NCBI RefSeq assembly: GCF_918698245.1
Contig: NZ_CAKKMS010000003.1
Span: forward strand, 62,001-126,000
Source: Pedobacter sp. Bi126
GTDB taxonomy: Bacteria; Bacteroidota; Bacteroidia; Sphingobacteriales; Sphingobacteriaceae
DNA length: 64,000 nt
Direction: 5' to 3'
The notes under the pieces are model-generated. The model was not told where the DNA came from. It saw nothing but the letters and a program-made list of their open reading frames with translations, and made no database searches. Within the stretch, counting starts at the first letter, position 1; each line of letters opens with the position of its first letter. Below are positions 49,818-62,493 of the stretch, piece by piece. The translations under genes and the position numbers were made by a program.

Positions 49818-50630
49818 TTAAACCTCAAATGCCCAATCCAAAAAGGCAGGCATTACACTTTCCCAGGTTGGAACATCGTGTTTGCCACCAACTTTTTCGT
49901 AGTAAAAAACATTTTCAGGTCGTTTATAACCTTTATTCAAGAGTATTTTAACAACATCAATCGTATCATCTATAGAATCGATGATCATATTTTTATTCCG
50001 ATCAGCCTTTTCATCTTCCGTTCCTGTCATTAACCAGAATTTCATATCAGGCCTGGTAGAGGTACTTTCCAGCTTTGCATGCATAATGCGATCTGCATCA
50101 GTATATCCTTCTGCCAGATCTTTTTTTCTCCACCAAAATGCTCCTGAAAAAACACCAATGGCATCAAAAGCAGCAGGATTATTCCAGGCAATATCAAAAG
50201 CAGACAAACCGCCCAAAGAAAATCCCGCAAAACCTACTTTACCAGTTATCGGCATCGCAATTTTCTTTTTAACAAAAGGCAAAAGCTCTTTGATCACGAA
50301 ATCAGTATATAAATCGGCTTTCGCTCCACGCCCTTTAAAATCGGGCACACCCGCAACACCATATTCCATTAACCGGTCTTCTGATGCTTTAATGGCCACA
50401 ACAATTAACCTGTGGTTTCTTTTGCCATGATGGGCTTCTTCCAAAATCCGGCTAAAATCCATTTTGGCCACATCCTGCCCATCATTTAACAAAAGAAGTT
50501 CTATTTTTTCATTTCCTAAAATACCTTCGGGTGTATAAATATCTATTTCTACCTCATGCTTTAAATAAGCTGAGGGTATTTTAAAGTTGCTGGTATTAAC
50601 TTTTACCGATAAAATTGTGGTGTACATCAT
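49818..50630 (-). CDS. alpha/beta-hydrolase esterase (putative esterase family)
   Basis: About 270 residues. The nucleophile elbow is GFSLGG (Ser near 147) and the His is in GGKHDVPTW. It resembles the enterochelin-esterase/S-formylglutathione hydrolase type (PF00756): a beta-sheet-rich start, IELLLLNDGQDV, then GVFSGAFWWRKK after the elbow. ATG 50630 (or 50627) is preferred to the in-frame TTG at 50636. It is divergent from the peptide-cluster esterase gene at 50813 and may belong to the same pathway. Confidence 0.82.
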   Translation of the reverse strand: MMYTTILSVKVNTSNFKIPSAYLKHEVEIDIYTPEGILGNEKIELLLLNDGQDVAKMDFSRILEEAHHGKRNHRLIVVAIKASEDRLMEYGVAGVPDFKGRGAKADLYTDFVIKELLPFVKKKIAMPITGKVGFAGFSLGGLSAFDIAWNNPAAFDAIGVFSGAFWWRKKDLAEGYTDADRIMHAKLESTSTRPDMKFWLMTGTEDEKADRNKNMIIDSIDDTIDVVKILLNKGYKRPENVFYYEKVGGKHDVPTWESVMPAFLDWAFEV

Positions 50631-50675
50631 AATCAAAATCCCCTATCACATGGCTATCGCCTCAGAATTAGGGTG

Positions 50676-50812: not shown

Positions 50813-51520
50813 ATGGTTAAAGAAGAACATAAGAAATGGTACAGCCCGAATTTAAGTGGCGAAATCGACATGCTCATCTTTGGTCACGGTGGTATCCCTA
50901 TCCTACTGTTCCCGACAAGCATGGGTCGATATTTTGAAACCAAGGATTTCAAACTGATAGATTCTGTTGAGGGATTTATCAATGAAGGAAAAATTAAGAT
51001 CTATTGCCCCGATGGCGTCGACAAATTAAGCTGGTACAACAAAAGTATTCACCCTGCCGACAGGGTTAAAAACCACATCTGGTACGACAAATATTTATTG
51101 GAAGAAGTGGCCCCTCTGGCAAGGCACGAAACCGGGCACAGCAAAATTATTACCGCCGGCTGTAGTTTCGGAGGCTATCATGCTGCTAATTTCGCTTTTC
51201 GGCATCCCTGGTTGGTTAGCCATATGTTTAGTATGAGCGGGGCTTTCGATATTTCCGGCCAGTTGGATGGTTTTTATAATGATGATGTTTATTTTAACAA
51301 TCCGGTTGATTATCTGCTGAATAATAGTAACCCCGAACTGCATTATATGAAAATTGTTTTGGGCACAACAGACCGCGATATGTGCAGGCCTGACAATGAG
51401 CGTTTATCTGATATTTTAAACAAAAAGGGCATCGACCACTGGCTTGATATCAGGCAGAATGCGGATCACGATTGGCCTATCTGGAGAGAAATGTTTCCAG
51501 ATTATATTGCACAGCTTTAG
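50813..51520 (+). CDS. alpha/beta-hydrolase (COG4947-type esterase)
   Basis: A 235-residue cytoplasmic esterase-like protein. The nucleophile elbow is AGCSFGGYHA (Ser118), the acid is likely to be Asp187 in GTTDRDM and the His is His219 in NADHDWPIW. PILLFPTSMGRYFE near 30-43 and YCPDGVDKLSWY are family blocks. It is the first of five co-directional genes (50813-56026) with ligase and amidotransferase functions, so it probably trims or releases an ester or amide of the product. Confidence 0.85.
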   Translation: MVKEEHKKWYSPNLSGEIDMLIFGHGGIPILLFPTSMGRYFETKDFKLIDSVEGFINEGKIKIYCPDGVDKLSWYNKSIHPADRVKNHIWYDKYLLEEVAPLARHETGHSKIITAGCSFGGYHAANFAFRHPWLVSHMFSMSGAFDISGQLDGFYNDDVYFNNPVDYLLNNSNPELHYMKIVLGTTDRDMCRPDNERLSDILNKKGIDHWLDIRQNADHDWPIWREMFPDYIAQL

Positions 51521-51522
51521 TT

Positions 51523-51602
51523 TAGTCCAAAGTCGGCAGTCTTAAGTCCCGAGTCGATTTAGGATATAATTATCAAACAATTAACCGATTAACCAGTTAA
51601 AC
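51523..51602. repeat. 7-base then 8-base periodic tract
   Basis: AGTC recurs at exactly 7-base steps five times (AGTCCAA, AGTCGGC, AGTCTTA, AGTCCCG, AGTCGAT). Later TTAA recurs at 8-base steps in AATTAACC, GATTAACC, AGTTAAAC and ATTTAAAC. It lies just upstream of the ATP-grasp gene. Confidence 0.6.
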
Positions 51603-51622
51603 ATTTAAACTAAAATTTACCA

Positions 51623-52717
51623 ATGAAGAAAATAGGGATTTTATTTGGACAGGAACGCTCTTTTCCTGAAGCCGTAATCGAAAGAATTAACCAAAAAGCT
51701 GAAAAAGGTATTACCGCCGAAGCTGTTAAAATCGACAAAATATTTCAGAATGTACCATTAGGTTATTCGGTAATTATCGATCGCATTTCGCAAGATGTAC
51801 CATTCTACCGCGCATCGTTAAAAAATGCTGCCATTACCGGAACTGCTGTAATTAACAACCCATTTTGGTGGAGTGCCGACGAGAAATTTTTTAATAACGC
51901 GCTGGCCGAACAGATTGGCGTACCCGTACCCAAAACGGCCTTAATCCCTTCAAGGGAGCACCCTACAGGAACCACCGGAGAATCTTTCTCTAATTTAACC
52001 ATGCCCTTAGATTGGGATGCCATTTTTGAATACACTGGTTTTCCGGCCTACATGAAACCTTATGATGGTGGTGGTTGGAGAGATGTTTATAAACTTCATG
52101 ACAAAGAAGATTTTTTTGATAAACACAGCGGTACACAACAGCTGGTAATGCTTTTGCAGGAAGAAATCATTTTTGAAGAGTATTTCAGGTGTTATTGCAT
52201 TGGCGGCAAATATGTCCGTATTATGCAGTACGACCCACGGAATCCGCATCACTTACGTTATGCCACTGAAGGTAAAGCGCCAGATGCAAAGCTGCTTAAA
52301 ACCGTAGAAGAGTACACCCTAAAACTATGCAAGTATTTAGGATACGATTTCAATACAGTAGAATTCGCGGTGCGCGATGGAGTGCCTATTGCGATCGATT
52401 TCTGTAACCCTGCTCCTGATGCTGACATTAAAAGCGTTGGTCAGGAAAATTTTGACTGGGTAGTAGAAACCACAGCAAATTATGCCATTGAAAGGGCTAA
52501 AGCGCAAAAAGACGGGCAAGATAATTTAACCTGGGGCGAATACATTAAATCGTCGGTTGGTGGTAAACCATTAATTGCCAAAGGTACCCCGAATGTGGCT
52601 AAAGCGGCCGCTCCAAAGAAAGTTACCGCTGCAGAAAAGGCTAAGGCTACACCAAAGAAATCGGCAACAACAGAAAAAACACCTGCAAAACCTAAAAAAG
52701 CTGCAGCAAAAAAATAA
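51623..52717 (+). CDS. ATP-grasp ligase with Lys/Ala/Pro-rich tail
   Basis: A 364-residue ATP-dependent carboxylate ligase. The ATP-grasp core spans about 80-300: GFPAYMKPYDGGGWRDVY (Lys145, the glycine-rich loop) and TVEFAVRDGVPIAIDF with the metal ligands Glu247 and Asp259, then Asn262. RimK-like fold is likely. Residues about 324-364 form a tail of KAAAPKK, KATPKKSATT and KPKKAAAKK runs, like eukaryotic histone H1 or bacterial HU/AlgP tails. It makes an amide or peptide bond, probably in the pathway with the adjacent YbdK-type ligase. The substrate is unknown. Confidence 0.8.
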   Translation: MKKIGILFGQERSFPEAVIERINQKAEKGITAEAVKIDKIFQNVPLGYSVIIDRISQDVPFYRASLKNAAITGTAVINNPFWWSADEKFFNNALAEQIGVPVPKTALIPSREHPTGTTGESFSNLTMPLDWDAIFEYTGFPAYMKPYDGGGWRDVYKLHDKEDFFDKHSGTQQLVMLLQEEIIFEEYFRCYCIGGKYVRIMQYDPRNPHHLRYATEGKAPDAKLLKTVEEYTLKLCKYLGYDFNTVEFAVRDGVPIAIDFCNPAPDADIKSVGQENFDWVVETTANYAIERAKAQKDGQDNLTWGEYIKSSVGGKPLIAKGTPNVAKAAAPKKVTAAEKAKATPKKSATTEKTPAKPKKAAAKK

Positions 52718-52746
52718 TTGGGATTTAATTTTTAATCAATACAAGG

Positions 52747-53847
52747 ATGAACGAGTTTACGCTGGGCATAGAAGAAGAATACATGGTAATTGATCCCGTT
52801 ACCAGAGAGCTTACTTCTCACGACCAAAAAATTGTGGAAGCCGCACAAAAAATCCACAAAGACCAGGTTAAGGCAGAAATGCACCAGGCCGTGGTAGAAG
52901 TTGGAACGGGCATTTGTAAAACGACCACAGAAGCACGTAAAGAAATTTCCCAACTGCGTTATACCGTTTCACAACTCGCCGGAGAGCAAGGCTTAAGGAT
53001 TGGAGCTGCTGGTACCCACCCCTTTTCGCATTGGGAAAAACAGTTAATTACAGAACATCCCCGCTATAATGAAATTGTGAACGAACTACAGGAAGCCGCA
53101 CGTTCTAACCTCATTTTTGGCCTGCACGTACACGTAGGTTTCCAATCGCGTGAGCTGGCCATTCATATTGCCAACCAGGTGAGGTATTTCCTGCCACATG
53201 TTTTTGCTTTATCTACCAATTCTCCATTCTGGGAATCGCGGAACACGGGTTACAAATCTTTCCGCACAAAAATTTTCGACAAATTTCCGCGTACGGGCAT
53301 TCCCGATATTTTTAATAGCATTGAGGATTACGATAATTATGTAAAACTGCTCATCAAAACCAATTGCATGGATAATGCGAAGAAAATTTGGTGGGATATC
53401 CGTGTGCATCCGTTTTTCGACACCGTTGAGTTCCGCATTTGCGATTGCCCGATGCTGATTGATGAAACGATGGCTTTTACCGCATTATTTCAGGCTTTGT
53501 GCGCCAAGCTGTACAAACTGCGTTTGCAGAACATGGAGTTTATCAGCTATTCGAGAGCACTAATTAACGAAAATAAATGGCGTGCTGCCCGTTATGGAAT
53601 TGATGGAAATTTAATCGATTTCGGGAAAGAAATGGAAGTAAACTGCCGCAACCTTATTTTAGAATTATTGGATTTTGTAGACGATGTGGTGGATGATTTA
53701 GGCTGCCGTGACGACATTAATTATGTGCATAAAATATTGGAGCACGGTACAGGCGCAGACCGGCAGTTGGCAGTTTACCAACAAACTGGTAACTTTGAGG
53801 CGGTGGTAGATTACATTACTACTCAAACACTTATAGGCGCAAAGTAA
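52747..53847 (+). CDS. YbdK-type carboxylate-amine ligase (GCS2 family)
   Basis: A 366-residue enzyme of the GCS2/YbdK family, related to glutamate-cysteine ligase. GIEEEY (7-12), GLHVHVG (125-131), WWDIRVHP (215-222) and TVEFRICD (226-233) are the family blocks that bind ATP, metal and the carboxylate. E. coli YbdK has weak glutamate-cysteine ligase activity, and the true substrate of most members is unknown. It follows the ATP-grasp gene by 29 bases and the next gene begins 7 bases after it, so this is one operon. Confidence 0.92.
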   Translation: MNEFTLGIEEEYMVIDPVTRELTSHDQKIVEAAQKIHKDQVKAEMHQAVVEVGTGICKTTTEARKEISQLRYTVSQLAGEQGLRIGAAGTHPFSHWEKQLITEHPRYNEIVNELQEAARSNLIFGLHVHVGFQSRELAIHIANQVRYFLPHVFALSTNSPFWESRNTGYKSFRTKIFDKFPRTGIPDIFNSIEDYDNYVKLLIKTNCMDNAKKIWWDIRVHPFFDTVEFRICDCPMLIDETMAFTALFQALCAKLYKLRLQNMEFISYSRALINENKWRAARYGIDGNLIDFGKEMEVNCRNLILELLDFVDDVVDDLGCRDDINYVHKILEHGTGADRQLAVYQQTGNFEAVVDYITTQTLIGAK

Positions 53848-53854
53848 TTTTATA

Positions 53855-54682
53855 ATGGATAAAAGTAGCTTAAAGGTGGCCGTTATTGACATGAATAACG
53901 GTGCACCTAATCAGGGTATGCGGGGAATTCAGGAAATTTTATCCCGTTTTAAAAACGATAACAATATCGATTTAACCTTTGATATATTTGATTTAAGGCA
54001 AAAAGGAGAAATACCAGGCATCGGTTATGATGCTTATATTTCTAGTGGTGGCCCAGGGAGCCCGATTGAAAGTAAGGGCGAACAATGGGAAAATGATTTC
54101 TTTAATCTCTTAGATCAGATAGAAGCTTTTAACCATAAAAACGACGAACGAAAAAAGTATGCTTTTTTAATCTGCCATTCTTTCCAATTGGCTTGTAGAA
54201 AATATGAATTGGGCAACGTAACCGAAAGACGGTCGAATGCTTTTGGCATTTTCCCGATTACCTTGACTGAAGATGGAGAAAAAGACGAAATTTTTAATGG
54301 TATTACCAACCCTTTCTTTTCGGTCGACAGCAGAGATTGGCAAGTGATAGAGCCAGATTTTGCTGCTTTCGAGAAAAAAGGCTCAAAATTATTGGCCATC
54401 GAAAAAGAACGTAAACATGTCGATTTAGAACGCTGTATGATGTCGATCCGCTTTTCCGATGAAATCATTGGTACACAATTCCATCCAGAAGCTGATCCGG
54501 TAGGCATGAAAATGTACTTGCTTCAGGAAGAAAAGAAAAAAGCAATTGTTGATATGCACGGGGAACAAAAATACCTGGATATGTTAAATAGTTTAGACGA
54601 TCCGGCAAGGATTGTGCTCACGCAAAGTGTTATTTTACCTAATTTCTTACAAAAAGCAATTGGGGATTTGCAGGAAGTGTAA
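53855..54682 (+). CDS. class I glutamine amidotransferase-like protein
   Basis: A 275-residue class I GATase. YISSGGPGSP (61-70) is the oxyanion strand. The nucleophile is Cys107 in LICHSFQLA, where the elbow's usual second Gly is replaced by Ser. The catalytic pair His210 and Glu212 lie in TQFHPEADP. The triad is therefore complete. In this operon it may supply ammonia, or hydrolyse a gamma-glutamyl or other amide bond. It starts 7 bases after the YbdK gene and appears to be translated from its own start ATG 53855. Confidence 0.85.
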   Translation: MDKSSLKVAVIDMNNGAPNQGMRGIQEILSRFKNDNNIDLTFDIFDLRQKGEIPGIGYDAYISSGGPGSPIESKGEQWENDFFNLLDQIEAFNHKNDERKKYAFLICHSFQLACRKYELGNVTERRSNAFGIFPITLTEDGEKDEIFNGITNPFFSVDSRDWQVIEPDFAAFEKKGSKLLAIEKERKHVDLERCMMSIRFSDEIIGTQFHPEADPVGMKMYLLQEEKKKAIVDMHGEQKYLDMLNSLDDPARIVLTQSVILPNFLQKAIGDLQEV

Positions 54683-54693
54683 AAAACCCATCA

Positions 54694-54809
54694 CCGTCAT
54701 TTCGACTGGAGCGCAGTGGAACGGAGAAATCTATTAAACATGTTTAAGATAAAAAGTTAAAGGATTTCTCCACTACGGACGAAAGGACGATCTCTCATTT
54801 GCAATGACA
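54694..54809. repeat. CGTCATTTCGA-type imperfect inverted repeat
   Basis: CGTCATTTCGACTGGAGCG at the left, GCAATGAC at the right. GGAGAAATC and GATTTCTCC at about 54723 and 54763 pair perfectly. A relative of 13712-13877. Confidence 0.65.
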
Positions 54810-54838
54810 AGTTGTAAACCAGAACCAATTACAAACCT

Positions 54839-56026
54839 ATGATACCTGCTCAACGCCAAAAATACAATCAGCAATTTACAGAAGAAAAATACAAAAATTT
54901 CATCGCCAAGCTGCAAAATGGTTATCCGGAAATCCCTTTCAGGGTTGCAGAAACGCCAGTATTTATCCCGAAAGCACTGAAAGAAAAACTAATTGCGGCA
55001 GGAAATGAAATTATAAACCTGATTAAGCAACCTAATTTTAAAGCGCTTACTGAAAAGGCTATCCCCTCCAACTGGAACGTACCTAATGAAAACGAACAGC
55101 CCCACTTTTTAACCTTCGATTTTGGTATTTGTAAAAATCAAGCCGGAGAGCTTACACCCATGCTAATCGAAATGCAGGGTTTTCCTTCCTTATATGGCTT
55201 TCAGCATCACTTGGCTAAAACTTTCCGGACAAGTTTTGAGATTGATGGTGCTGTGAATCATTTTTTAAACGGCTTTAACGAAGAAGCGTATATCAAGTTG
55301 CTTAAAGAAGTCATTATTGGCGCCCATCAACCAGAAGAAGTAGCCCTGATGGATGTAGATGCGCCTAACCAAAAAACGGCCATTGATTTTTTTGTTACCC
55401 AAAAAATGTTGGGCATTAAGATTTTAGCACTGGAAGACATTAAAAAAGTAGGCAAACAGCTTTTTTATGAAGAAGATGGCAAAAAGATCCAGTTAAAAAG
55501 AATTTATAACCGCCTGATATTTGATGAGGTAGCCAATAACACCGAAATTTTCAAAAACAGTTTCGACCCACGTGAAGAATTGGATGTAGAATGGGTAACC
55601 CATCCAAACTGGTTTTACCGCATCAGCAAATACACCATGCCTTTCTTAAAAAGCGAATTTGTGCCCGAAACACGTTTCTTGAACGAGGTAAAGGTTATTC
55701 CAAAAGATTTAGAAAACTATGTACTTAAACCATTATTCTCTTTCGCTGGTATGGGCGTAATTATCGATGTAAGCGAAACAGACATTACCAATATAAAAGA
55801 TCCCGAAAACTGGATTTTACAAAGAAAAGTAAATTACGAGCCAGCTGTACAGGCACCTGATGGTGGCGTTAAGGCTGAAATCAGGATGATGTATTTATGG
55901 CCCGATGGTGGTGAGCCTCAGCTTTGCATTAATCTGGCAAGGTTGAGCAAAGGAAAAATGATTGGCGTACGCTACAACGCAGATTTCGATTGGGTTGGTG
56001 GTACTGTAGGTTTTATGGAGGAATAA
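54839..56026 (+). CDS. divergent ATP-grasp-like protein
   Basis: A 395-residue cytoplasmic protein. The C-terminal 120 residues carry ATP-grasp-like features: NYVLKPLFSFAGMGVIIDV (Lys297 and a Gly-rich loop), NWILQRKVNYEP (hinge Gln328), KAEIRMMYLW (Arg349) and LCINLARLS (Asn365). The first half has LTPMLIEMQGFPSLYGFQ, which resembles the N-terminal part of glutathionylspermidine-synthetase-like proteins. It is the last gene of the ligase cluster, 156 bases after the GATase and with a repeat between. It probably makes a second amide bond in the same product. Confidence 0.65.
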   Translation: MIPAQRQKYNQQFTEEKYKNFIAKLQNGYPEIPFRVAETPVFIPKALKEKLIAAGNEIINLIKQPNFKALTEKAIPSNWNVPNENEQPHFLTFDFGICKNQAGELTPMLIEMQGFPSLYGFQHHLAKTFRTSFEIDGAVNHFLNGFNEEAYIKLLKEVIIGAHQPEEVALMDVDAPNQKTAIDFFVTQKMLGIKILALEDIKKVGKQLFYEEDGKKIQLKRIYNRLIFDEVANNTEIFKNSFDPREELDVEWVTHPNWFYRISKYTMPFLKSEFVPETRFLNEVKVIPKDLENYVLKPLFSFAGMGVIIDVSETDITNIKDPENWILQRKVNYEPAVQAPDGGVKAEIRMMYLWPDGGEPQLCINLARLSKGKMIGVRYNADFDWVGGTVGFMEE

Positions 56027-56318: not shown

Positions 56319-56477
56319 ATGAATATTCAAACGATTTTAGTCTTTTTACTTTTTGCGGTAGCATTGGTATATGTTGGCCGTTTGGTTTTTAAATCTTTAC
56401 AGGTAAAAAAAGATGGATGTGGTGGTAATTGTAAATGTGGTGTAGATTTTTCCGATATTAAGCCCGTAAAAAAATAA
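56319..56477 (+). CDS. FeoB-associated Cys-rich membrane protein
   Basis: A 52-residue protein with one transmembrane segment (about 5-24) and a Cys-rich tail GCGGNCKCG (about 34-42). This matches the FeoB-associated Cys-rich family (PF12669), found near ferrous-iron transporters. No feoB is in the window. The preferred start is ATG 56319, since the longer frame from 56241 is not like the family. The four Cys may bind metal or a cluster. It lies 12 bases upstream of the Crp/Fnr gene. Confidence 0.75.
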   Translation: MNIQTILVFLLFAVALVYVGRLVFKSLQVKKDGCGGNCKCGVDFSDIKPVKK

Positions 56478-59088: not shown

Positions 59089-62000
59089 ATGTCCGGAAAA
59101 CAAATATTTCAAACTGAGACCAAAAGACGCTGGCATACATTTACATGGGTAAGCCGCACGTTTTTTTTAGTCTTCATTATCGCAATCATCTGCGTGGTGT
59201 ACACACTGTCTTCAGTACAGGCACCTAATTTGCCTTTTATCAATACAAATACACCGTTAACACAAAAACAGTTAGAGAAGTTAAAAAAATCGCAACAGTA
59301 TAAGGATTTCACCATCGAAAAATCTAAGTTGCAAAAGATCAAAAAAGATCGTGAATACCGCATTTTAAGCCATCGAGGTAACAGCAAGCGCATCAACATG
59401 GCATTTTACGTAAGCTGGGCAGCCAGTAAAGAATCATCAATATCAGATTTAAAACGCAACATTAGCCATTTGGATATGGTGGCTACAGAGTCGTTCTTTT
59501 TAAATGGTGATTCTATTGTAGATAAAGCAGATACTGCGGCCTTAAAAGTAATACATGCCGGCAAAAAATCGGCTATTGCGGTGGTTTCAAATTACAATAA
59601 AGATCATTGGGATGGTGCAGCAGTAAGAAGATTATTAAACGATCAATCTGCCCAGCAAAAATTGATCTACGATCTTATAGCAATTACCAAAAAATACGGC
59701 TATAGTGGAATTAATATAGATTTCGAAGAGCTCAACCTCCAAAATAGCGATAGTTTTAACGCTTTTATGAAAAATCTATATACTCAGTTTCACACCGAGA
59801 AACTGATTGTTTCTCAGGATATTTCACCCGAAAATGACGATTATAAGCCAGAAATTCTTCAAAAATATAATGATTACCTCGTATTAATGGCTTATGATCA
59901 GCATACTGAACAAAGTAACGCAGGCGATATTTCCCATCAGGAATGGGTGGAGGAAAAGCTTGATGATATCTGCAGTAAAGTGGATGCCAGCAAAGTAATC
60001 CTTGCCTTGGCTTGCTACGGTTACGATTGGCCAAAAAATAGCATTGGGCAACCGGTTACTTACGAGCAGGCGATGACAATGGCCGTTAATTATAAAAGCA
60101 AAATAAACTATAATCCTGCTTCTGCCAATTTAAACTACACTTACAACGATGGCAGTGGGATTAAACATGAAGTTTACTTTACTGATGCGGCAACCTATTT
60201 TAATTTAATCCGCAAGGCTGATGATTGGGATATTGCTGGTGTAGCCTTATGGCGCTTAGGTTCAGAAGACAAACGCTTATGGTCGTTTATTTCCAATGAC
60301 CTTAGTTTGGATACATTAAAGAAAAAACCCTTCGATTTACGCAAAATTGCTTCATTAAATATGGGTGGAATCTCCTACTTAGGCGATGGCGAAATTCTGG
60401 ACCTGATTTCTACCCCTACACCTGGTAGTGTAAAGTTCACTTTAAACAAAGACAACTTTTCCATTGCCGATCAAAAGTATATCAGACTTCCAGAGCAATA
60501 TGTAATTAAAAGGTTTGGAGAGGCCGATAAGAAAATCGCCTTAACCTTTGATGATGGGCCAGACCCGGTTTATACACCACAGGTATTAAATATTTTGAAA
60601 CGAGAAAAAGTACCAGGCTGTTTCTTTGTGGTTGGCATTATGGCTGAACAGAACATGGAATTGTTAAGACAGGAATATAATGATGGTTATGAAATTGGAA
60701 ACCATACTTTCTTCCATCCTGATATGTCGGCCATTGGACCACGAAGGGTAAAGTTCGAACTAAATGCCACCCGTAGATTAATTGAAGCGGTTACCGGTCA
60801 CAGCACAATCCTGTTCCGTGCACCATTTAATGCTGATGCCGAACCCCAAAATATTTCAGAAATTCTGCCTGTTGCACAGAGCCGTAAAGAAAATTACATC
60901 AATATCGGGGAATATATAGATCCTGAAGATTGGCAACCAGGCAAAACTGCCGATCAGATTTTTAACGAAGTAGTGAAACAACAGGACAACGGTAATATCC
61001 TTTTATTACACGATGCTGGTGGAAACCGCGAAGCTACTGTTGCAGCCCTACCCCGGATTATAAAATTCTTTAAGGCCAAGGGGTATACCTTTACTACGGT
61101 TGGCGATTTAATGGGCAAAAAAAGATCGGAATTAATGCCTGCGGTAAAATCTATGGCAAATAGTGGTTTTTCTGGTTCTGGTGATTACTTTTTCATCAAT
61201 TTCTTTTACTATGGAAACATGATTTTAAACATCGTATTTTCTGTAGCGATTGTACTTGCTATCTTAAGGACGATATTTATCGCCTATTTAGCCATCAGAC
61301 AGCGAAAAAGAGCGAAACAGAATGTCAGCAAATTGGTAGTAAATCCTTCAGAAAAAGTGAGTATTATCATTCCGGCTTACAATGAAGAAGTTACTGCTGT
61401 GCAAACCATTAATAGTCTTTTAAAAACCACCTACCCCGATTTTGAACTGATTTTTGTGGATGATGGTTCGAAAGATAAAACCTTCGAAATTATTAATGAA
61501 CACTTTGGCAACCACCCTCAGGTAAAGGTTTTCCGCAAAGCAAATGGAGGTAAAGCATCTGCATTAAATTATGGTATATCAAAAGCAACTTCCGAATTTG
61601 TGGTCTGTATAGATGCCGATACACAGCTAAAAGATGATGCCGTTACCGAACTGATGCGTTATTTTTATAGTGACCAAATTGCGGCAGTAGCTGGTACTGT
61701 GAAAGTTGGGAATGCCAACAATATCATTACCAAATGGCAGTCTATTGAATATATCACCGCACAGAATATGGATAGGCGTGCTTTCGACTTATTAAATACA
61801 ATTACTGTTGTTCCTGGAGCAATAGGTGCTTTCAGAAAAAATGTAATTTTAGAAATCGGCGGATTTACCATTGATACACTTGCCGAAGACTGCGATTTAA
61901 CCATGCGTATTTTGAAAGCAGGTTACCGCGTAAAAAATTGTGATACTGCAATTGCTTATACCGAAGCACCAGAAACGGTGAATATGTTGCTTAAGCAACG

Positions 62001-62493
62001 TTTCCGCTGGAGTTTTGGCGTAATGCAAAGTTTCTGGAAAAACAGAAAAACACTGCTAAACAAGAAATATGGTTACTTTGGGATGGTAGGAATGCCAAAT
62101 ATTTTGATCTATCAGATCATTTTGCCGCTATTTTCTCCACTTGCCGATCTTTTTATGTTCATCTCGTTAATTAGTGGTCTATTTTCGTTAAGTGCTATAA
62201 ATAATTTAACCCTAACCGGATTTTCAGGAATTTTAAGCCTGCATAACGGTTTTGGCCAGGTACTTTTCTATTATATCATCTTTATTGTTGTAGATATGAT
62301 TTTTGCTGCAATCGCCTTCCGCATGGAAAAAGAAAAATACACGAATTTACTTTACATATTCCCACAGCGGTTTTTCTGGCGACAATTAATGTATATTGTA
62401 CTATTCCGTTCGTTCAGAAAAGCCATAAAAGGGGAACTGGAAACCTGGGGAACGTTAAAGCGGACAGGAAACGTTAAGGAGCAATTGGCGTAA
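59089..62493 (+). CDS. fusion: GH18-like domain, NodB polysaccharide deacetylase and GT2 synthase
   Basis: A 1134-residue protein. A transmembrane segment (about 24-42) leads to a GH18-like domain at about 100-400, with YSGINIDFEEL (205-215, Glu213 is the candidate acid). A NodB deacetylase domain at about 480-675 follows, with TFDDGPDP (Asp488, Asp489), HTFFHPDM (His539, His543) and FRAPFNAD. A transmembrane pair at 700-735 leads to a GT2 domain at about 755-1000 with DDGSKDKT, DADTQ (842-846), AEDCDL and QRFRW (970-974). It ends in four or more spans. All parts of a synthesis, deacetylation and trimming system for a poly-N-acetylhexosamine are in one chain. Confidence 0.88.
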   Translation: MSGKQIFQTETKRRWHTFTWVSRTFFLVFIIAIICVVYTLSSVQAPNLPFINTNTPLTQKQLEKLKKSQQYKDFTIEKSKLQKIKKDREYRILSHRGNSKRINMAFYVSWAASKESSISDLKRNISHLDMVATESFFLNGDSIVDKADTAALKVIHAGKKSAIAVVSNYNKDHWDGAAVRRLLNDQSAQQKLIYDLIAITKKYGYSGINIDFEELNLQNSDSFNAFMKNLYTQFHTEKLIVSQDISPENDDYKPEILQKYNDYLVLMAYDQHTEQSNAGDISHQEWVEEKLDDICSKVDASKVILALACYGYDWPKNSIGQPVTYEQAMTMAVNYKSKINYNPASANLNYTYNDGSGIKHEVYFTDAATYFNLIRKADDWDIAGVALWRLGSEDKRLWSFISNDLSLDTLKKKPFDLRKIASLNMGGISYLGDGEILDLISTPTPGSVKFTLNKDNFSIADQKYIRLPEQYVIKRFGEADKKIALTFDDGPDPVYTPQVLNILKREKVPGCFFVVGIMAEQNMELLRQEYNDGYEIGNHTFFHPDMSAIGPRRVKFELNATRRLIEAVTGHSTILFRAPFNADAEPQNISEILPVAQSRKENYINIGEYIDPEDWQPGKTADQIFNEVVKQQDNGNILLLHDAGGNREATVAALPRIIKFFKAKGYTFTTVGDLMGKKRSELMPAVKSMANSGFSGSGDYFFINFFYYGNMILNIVFSVAIVLAILRTIFIAYLAIRQRKRAKQNVSKLVVNPSEKVSIIIPAYNEEVTAVQTINSLLKTTYPDFELIFVDDGSKDKTFEIINEHFGNHPQVKVFRKANGGKASALNYGISKATSEFVVCIDADTQLKDDAVTELMRYFYSDQIAAVAGTVKVGNANNIITKWQSIEYITAQNMDRRAFDLLNTITVVPGAIGAFRKNVILEIGGFTIDTLAEDCDLTMRILKAGYRVKNCDTAIAYTEAPETVNMLLKQRFRWSFGVMQSFWKNRKTLLNKKYGYFGMVGMPNILIYQIILPLFSPLADLFMFISLISGLFSLSAINNLTLTGFSGILSLHNGFGQVLFYYIIFIVVDMIFAAIAFRMEKEKYTNLLYIFPQRFFWRQLMYIVLFRSFRKAIKGELETWGTLKRTGNVKEQLA

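Follow-up and report, generated by a model that had tools for sequence, protein, structure and literature searches.

What is made by the gene cluster at 50813-56026 of the window, a 64,000-nucleotide stretch of contig 3 (NZ_CAKKMS010000003.1, positions 62,001 to 126,000) of the 6.29-Mb genome of Pedobacter sp. Bi126? Five co-directional genes at this locus encode two ATP-grasp ligases (A1 and A2), a carboxylate-amine ligase (GCS2), a class-I glutamine amidotransferase (GATase)-like protein (GAT) and an esterase (est1), and a second esterase (est2) diverges from them. The cluster probably encodes a template-free assembly line of soluble enzymes whose product is a short peptide or peptide amide, glutathione-like in logic and not in identity. 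An initial annotation, made from the letters alone, had proposed a small-peptide pathway, and that interpretation is partly supported by the comparisons reported here. The features are as follows.

est2, 49818-50630, minus strand: divergent alpha/beta hydrolase, PF00756 esterase, 270 amino acids from ATG.
est1, 50813-51520, plus strand: alpha/beta hydrolase of 235 amino acids with a GCSFG motif, PF00756.
A1, 51623-52717, plus strand: RimK/LysX-like ATP-grasp ligase of 364 amino acids, by structure model.
GCS2, 52747-53847, plus strand: GCS2/YbdK-type carboxylate-amine ligase of 366 amino acids, PF04107 and PRK13515.
GAT, 53855-54682, plus strand: class-I GATase-like protein of 275 amino acids with Cys107-His210-Glu212, PF00117.
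A2, 54839-56026, plus strand: circularly permuted ATP-grasp of 395 amino acids with the fold of GspS, YgiC and eukaryotic glutathione synthetases, by structure model.

The five co-directional open reading frames (ORFs) are intact, with gaps of 102, 29, 7 and 156 bases, and both the 29- and 7-base gaps and the divergent esterase reported in the initial annotation are present. The ORF list gives est2 as 49818-50636 with a TTG start, and the ATG start gives 49818-50630. The closest relatives of A1 among the matches listed are from Pedobacter, at 97% for P. ginsenosidimutans.

GCS2 scores over the cut-offs of PF04107 (1.7e-61, 208.6 bits over 21) and PRK13515 (546.3 over 371), and its relatives in the PDB are 1tt4 (1.3e-47) and YbdK, 1r8g (3.5e-46), in line with the YbdK-type ligase first named for this gene. 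GAT fits the class-I GATase model, with 34.3 bits over 22.8 for PF00117 together with the triad, and the residues Cys107, His210 and Glu212 singled out earlier show no variation in the 13 aligned rows or in a larger set made up of 34 homologues and the window. Both esterases exceed the PF00756 cut-off of 22, est2 at 76 bits and est1 at 28.8 bits. Ser138, Asp206 and His251 of est2 are invariant in 13/13 rows. The triad of est1, assigned by position, comprises Ser118 (26/29 rows), Asp189 (29/29) and His219 (26/29).

Neither ATP-grasp gene is over any Pfam or NCBIfam cut-off, and the ATP-grasp calls were therefore tested by structure. The models back both calls, and the two ligases are of different type, as had been proposed. 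A1 scores 40 bits (2.9e-10) against TIGR00768, the RimK family, well below its cut-off of 143.4, and is thus not a member by this model. The AlphaFold2 (AF2) model of A1, with 15 homologues in the input, has a predicted local distance difference test (pLDDT) score of 82.6 and gives a full-domain match to the RimK/LysX-type ATP-grasp fold. Its VIA-align leaders are RimK, ArgX and LysX at Z 21.2-22.3 over about 260 residues, the best being RimK 5zct_A (Z 22.3, 262 residues, root-mean-square deviation (rmsd) 2.8). The C-terminal tail of A1 (residues 327-364, 52601-52714, plus strand) is Lys/Ala-rich and histone-H1-like, and is modelled with low confidence. Such a tail, extending 24 to 86 residues past the last conserved motif, is found at the end of Sphingobacteriaceae A1 proteins and of a few from elsewhere, and A1 of many other families ends at about 313-337 residues without a Lys/Ala-rich tail; this comparison covers loci up to L129.

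These matches raise the question of whether A1 modifies a protein or a carrier, acting like RimK on the S6 tail or like LysX/ArgX on LysW, with A2 and GCS2 extending or releasing the chain. The Sphingobacteriaceae tail could bind or be the substrate, and the fold of A1 is that of the RimK, ArgX and LysX enzymes. Against this, the long tail is missing from the loci of many other families, and no small conserved carrier-like ORFs were found across families, although no dedicated LysW search was made. Unlike these enzymes, A1 lies far below the RimK-family cut-off and no carrier or protein partner was identified. Enzymes with a glutathione synthetase fold are generally known for small-molecule substrates. 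Modification of a protein or carrier is therefore quite improbable.

A1 also matches PsnB (Z 19.6) and, in Foldseek, MdnC, and graspetide clusters occur in Bacteroidetes according to an excerpt of PMC8939145, so that the ATP-grasps could be cyclases of a graspetide, a ribosomally synthesized and post-translationally modified peptide (RiPP). Precursors were sought among ATG-started ORFs of 20-100 amino acids lying outside ORFs of at least 110 amino acids in 134 loci. The 14 largest groups from these loci contain no cross-family candidate. Only one small-ORF group, a FeoB-associated Cys-rich protein found beside A2 in the window's family, exceeds 8 of the 134 loci. The others among these 14 are either different frames of that ORF (shifted or antisense) or groups of 2-4 loci confined to a single family. 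A graspetide pathway is accordingly very improbable.

For A2, a single-sequence search against the PDB gave no match and a profile search reached YgiC at only 0.038, and structure was therefore needed to place it. The AF2 model, built with 12 homologues in the input (pLDDT 88.8), matches the permuted ATP-grasp fold of GspS and glutathione synthetase over its full length; the fifth gene, initially described as second ATP-grasp-like, is thus confirmed as an ATP-grasp and assigned to a more specific fold. Foldseek finds 3n6x, a putative glutathionylspermidine synthase, at 9.4e-14 and yeast glutathione synthetase at 1.8e-12, and all 23 matches with E at most 1e-3 comprise 3n6x, YgiC, YjfC, GspS, eukaryotic glutathione and homoglutathione synthetases, nematode relatives and Cp1B. 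In VIA-align, YgiC leads (Z 24.8 over 333 residues, rmsd 3.5), followed by YjfC (24.4), GspS 2io7 (23.9), human glutathione synthetase 2hgs (23.4) and Cp1B (21.9); scores then fall to 12.2 for a putative gamma-glutamylcysteine synthetase and to about 7 for ordinary ATP-grasps. Asp94, Glu111, Trp258, Lys264, Lys297 and Pro298 of A2 have matching residues in E. coli YgiC and Gss. Of the RxD and ExN motifs of these two enzymes, whose residues have known roles in GspS, A2 retains Asp94 and Glu111 only. PF03738 (glutathionylspermidine synthase) leaves the window's A2 unmatched at E up to 1, and matches 3 of the 13 aligned A2 members weakly (best E 0.0025).

The neighbourhood of A2 in structure space suggests peptide-polyamine conjugation, in which A2, as a YgiC/YjfC/GspS-like enzyme, would couple the peptide built by GCS2 and A1 to a polyamine, with GAT as the matching amidase, which is the logic of bifunctional GspS with other parts. 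YgiC, YjfC and bifunctional GspS are the nearest structures, the ligase adjoins a cysteine hydrolase, and the RefSeq name of YgiC is peptide--spermidine ligase (the paper behind the name being Pederick et al. 2023). However, the glutathione synthetases, which use amino acids, follow within about 1.5 Z (23.4-23.5), so that the two groups nearly tie, and Cp1B, an enzyme that couples amino acids with an epoxy-diacid (excerpt of PMC12568646), scores 21.9. A2 is moreover without the Arg and Asn common to YgiC and Gss. A polyamine conjugate is considered unlikely, and a short peptide or peptide amide is preferred.

An argument for a shared pathway is co-inheritance, which was surveyed in 158 genomes drawn from the phylum Bacteroidota. 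E limits were 1e-5 for A1, GCS2 and A2, 1e-20 for GAT and 1e-10 for est1, whose paralogues were pooled. A1 has 62 carriers, GCS2 55, GAT 43, A2 52 and est1-like genes 67, and all five occur together in 30 genomes. A1 and A2 are found together in 50 of the 158 (Fisher 5e-27). The corresponding values are 1e-27 for A1-GCS2, 9e-33 for GCS2-A2 and 8e-22 for A1-GAT, and the range over all ten pairs is 2e-12 to 6e-33. Since related genomes inflate Fisher tests, a within-family permutation was run, and none of 4000 shuffles attained the observed overlap for any of the six pairs tested. A "proper A1", with identity of 46% or more, is present in 60 genomes; G007 and G087, in which A1 is at 35% and the rest of the set is absent, are outside these 60 and inside the 62, the Fisher tests and the permutation. 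In families f1, f10, f14, f17, f28 and f32 each genome has the family's own set (drawn from A1, GCS2, GAT, A2 and c9, a further ligase described below) entirely or not at all, with lone est1-like genes persisting in G014 and G062. Families f2, f4, f13, f22 and f27 are likewise mixed and include the partial genomes G007, G154, G087 and G144. Within the genus Pedobacter, A2 is present in 112 of 119 genomes, in one of these (G245) as a fragment only.

Physical linkage is common and incomplete. Copies with starts less than 6 kb apart make up 34/52 A1-GCS2, 31/50 A1-A2, 31/50 GCS2-A2 and 23/33 GAT-A2 pairs. A1 and A2 lie more than 6 kb apart or on separate contigs in 19/50 genomes, and A1 and GCS2 in 18/52; some unlinked pairs are contig breaks and others are far apart on one contig (for example G059 and G043). 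Gene order was scanned in the best 80 of at least 588 A1 relatives, some of whose contigs end early. The complete six-gene order with divergent est2 is seen in 32 of these loci, and 25 have est2, A1 and GCS2 only, many of them titled Chitinophagaceae or its genera. GCS2 is downstream of A1 in 77 and est2 is divergent beside the cluster in 69. Strains of P. ginsengisoli and of P. cryoconitis possess all six genes. The genes are conserved in many genera, and this excludes chance.

It could still be supposed that the genes are neighbours by chance or share regulation only, each enzyme having its own housekeeping role, and in several families they are indeed scattered. Scattered genes are nevertheless co-present and co-absent, unlike unrelated housekeeping genes, and BshC, taken as a housekeeping control, occurs in 156 of 158 genomes whether or not the set is there. 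Since the genes are retained together although scattered, a joint function is argued, and a mere chance or housekeeping association is extremely improbable. The initial annotation had suggested a search for co-localisation in Bacteroidota; the set is conserved across the phylum, the contrary outcome was not observed, and no unrelated housekeeping role was found assigned to these ligases and hydrolases. Replacement of bacillithiol was a separate candidate, and it is ruled out, BshC being present in 156/158 genomes, including the window's, with no anticorrelation.

A second form of the permuted ligase accounts for the genomes in which A2 is missing. Ten A1-positive genomes have GAT and no A2, and all ten carry c6, a protein of about 451 amino acids whose coordinates lie between A1 and GAT in 10/10. 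A2 or c6 thus accompanies a proper A1 in 60 of 60 genomes (A2 in 50 and c6 in ten). The c6 profile matches 3n6x at 3.7e-7, and c6 keeps both RxD and ExN in 6/6 rows. A2 and c6 are called counterparts because they are complementary in the genomes and share the relative 3n6x. G137 has a 36% relative of c6 elsewhere in its genome in addition to A2. At E up to 1e-5, a further 28 genomes give c6 matches of 22-27% identity. Of these genomes 25 belong to f15, no such match lies near A1, and the matches are counted as other circularly permuted ATP-grasps.

A fourth ligase, c9, is a further ATP-grasp (ATP-grasp_4 in L052) found in 34 of the 158 genomes, all of them A1-positive (Fisher 8e-18). The query was L081:3396-4604 with E at most 1e-40, and the ORF picker missed c9 in L184 (G135). 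It is absent from the window's genome and from the two other genomes of the same genus in the sample. The f3 loci L081 and L085 have an esterase, an M17 aminopeptidase, c9, est1, A1, GCS2, GAT and A2 in one co-directional run. Among 15 fetched loci with c9 off the cluster, an M17 aminopeptidase flanks it in 4 and an esterase of the same group adjoins it or is near in 5. c9 and the aminopeptidases belong with the wider gene set. The invariant core is A1 with a GspS-fold ligase, and GCS2, GAT and c9 vary by lineage; because of this variation the product probably varies by lineage as well.

Ligases of these three types use ATP to activate carboxylates as acyl phosphates, and the GCS2 family activates the gamma-carboxylate of glutamate. 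In the proposed assembly line, GCS2 would activate a carboxylate, probably the gamma-carboxylate of glutamate, and join it to an amine in the first amide bond. A2 would extend a carboxylate of this product with an amino acid or amine, as in glutathione synthesis, and A1 would form a further amide bond. GAT may cut an amide bond in editing, recycling or maturation, a task that M29 and M17 aminopeptidases may perform in other lineages, and the esterases may act on an ester or thioester group, removing it or passing it on. GAT had initially been proposed to supply ammonia or to cut an amide. An M29 aminopeptidase stands between GCS2 and A2, in the slot of GAT, in L080 and L090, and with the aminopeptidases beside c9 this makes GAT more likely hydrolytic; amide cutting fits better than ammonia supply. 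In two genomes of family f5, G037 (L075) and G064 (L074), A1, GAT and A2 are present and GCS2 is unmatched at E 1e-5, so that the first ligation must differ there. Directly upstream of A2, an amidohydrolase is found in 3 of 5 fetched loci with A2 off the cluster (L189, L190 and L193), and its PF07969 identity was tested on the L189 copy only; it adds another kind of amide-cutting enzyme to those near A2.

Several observations weigh against this assembly line. Fold does not fix chemistry, and the Foldseek E-value order for A1 places D-Ala-D-Ala ligases ahead of RimK. A2 has Gln113 in place of the Asn of ExN and is without the Arg of RxD in 13/13 rows, and its acid substrate probably differs from that of YgiC and Gss. 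The direct profile match of A2 with c6 is weak (11% probability, E 0.0027), and to judge by their residues the two may take different acids and need not be equivalent. GAT is missing in 18 and GCS2 in 8 of the 60 core genomes, so that a single fixed pathway is too simple, and G154 (GCS2, GAT, A2) and G144 (GCS2, A2) are without A1. The M29 aminopeptidase takes the GAT slot in 2 loci only, and the slot is empty in the GAT-less L088 and L089, where GCS2 and A2 are adjacent. Est1-like genes occur without the rest of the set in 7/158 genomes, and 3 of 29 est1 rows are without catalytic residues. These three are f14 homologues beside A1 (L072:7755-8471, L073:8061-8789 and L076:8170-8895) in which the nucleophile Ser and the His are no longer present; they look like pseudoenzymes, and est1 is hence not always a hydrolase.

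Comparison with known systems places the set near glutathione synthesis in its logic, which likewise combines a ligase of the GCS superfamily with a permuted ATP-grasp of the glutathione synthetase fold. In contrast, GCS2 here is of the PRK13515 family, A2 is 8-14% identical to the compared glutathione synthetases, the cluster adds one more ligase, the third, together with its hydrolases, and BshC for bacillithiol is in the same genomes. A2 resembles E. coli Gss and YgiC/YjfC in its full-length fold and in the acidic pair, the Lys-Pro and other positions that align, and as in Gss the ligase is beside a cysteine hydrolase; the hydrolase here is class-I GATase-like, and A2 has no match to the Pfam GSP_synth model and no RxD Arg or ExN Asn. 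The pathways of E-64 (Cp1B with an amide bond synthetase) and of the dapdiamides also build a short amide chain by successive single ligases without a non-ribosomal peptide synthetase (NRPS), and Cp1B shares the fold of A2 (excerpt of PMC12568646). Unlike these, the set has no oxygenase or ANL-type synthetase recognised in its recurrent neighbourhood, and it is near-core in a genus.

Each enzyme type is known. A 2009 amidoligase survey by Iyer et al. (Mol Biosyst 5:1636) reportedly predicted pathways that join ATP-grasp and glutamine synthetase (GS)-fold ligases with peptidases and hydrolases, and it may describe related neighbourhoods. Among titles and abstract openings, which cover the literature in part and leave that survey unchecked, no description was found of these genes as a fixed combination in which the GspS-fold ligase has two forms and a fourth ligase is specific to some lineages; absence from print is not claimed. 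It may be, with slightly more doubt than confidence, that the genes make a previously unnamed and widespread class of glutathione-like metabolites in Bacteroidota, defined by an invariant pair of a RimK-like and a GspS-fold ligase (exchangeable A2/c6), by lineage-added GCS2 and fourth ligase and by exchangeable amide-hydrolase editing, and near-core in Pedobacter. In many families of Bacteroidota, and in almost every Pedobacter genome examined, up to four amide ligases are co-inherited, and no product was found assigned to them. The implication is a small molecule that has been overlooked and that may serve in redox chemistry, osmotic balance, storage or signalling. The pair of A1 with A2 or c6 and its lineage-specific additions offer a comparative design for metabolomics discovery, and stand-alone ligases of such kind are useful as biocatalysts.

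Seven proteins were checked with PADLOC for anti-phage defence, with no match. Searches for a plasmid or viral origin covered A1 alone of the set, and neither 72,556 plasmid records (at 1e-20) nor viral contigs yielded a relative of it. The FeoB-associated gene, which is not in the ORF list, lies in the window at 56319-56477 (plus strand), between A2 and a Crp-like regulator, and encodes a Cys-rich membrane protein of 52 amino acids (PF12669, 32 bits over 27). It occurs in 31 of 140 loci, namely L032-L034 (family f1) and 28 others; 27 of these 28 carry titles of Pedobacter, Mucilaginibacter or Sphingobacteriaceae. A group of ABC-transporter ATPases is seen in 6 of the 140 loci, so that an exporter is conceivable. 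Further downstream, 59089-62493 (plus strand) encodes a membrane protein of 1134 amino acids, which by eye suggests a fusion of a glycosyl hydrolase, a polysaccharide deacetylase and a glycosyltransferase.

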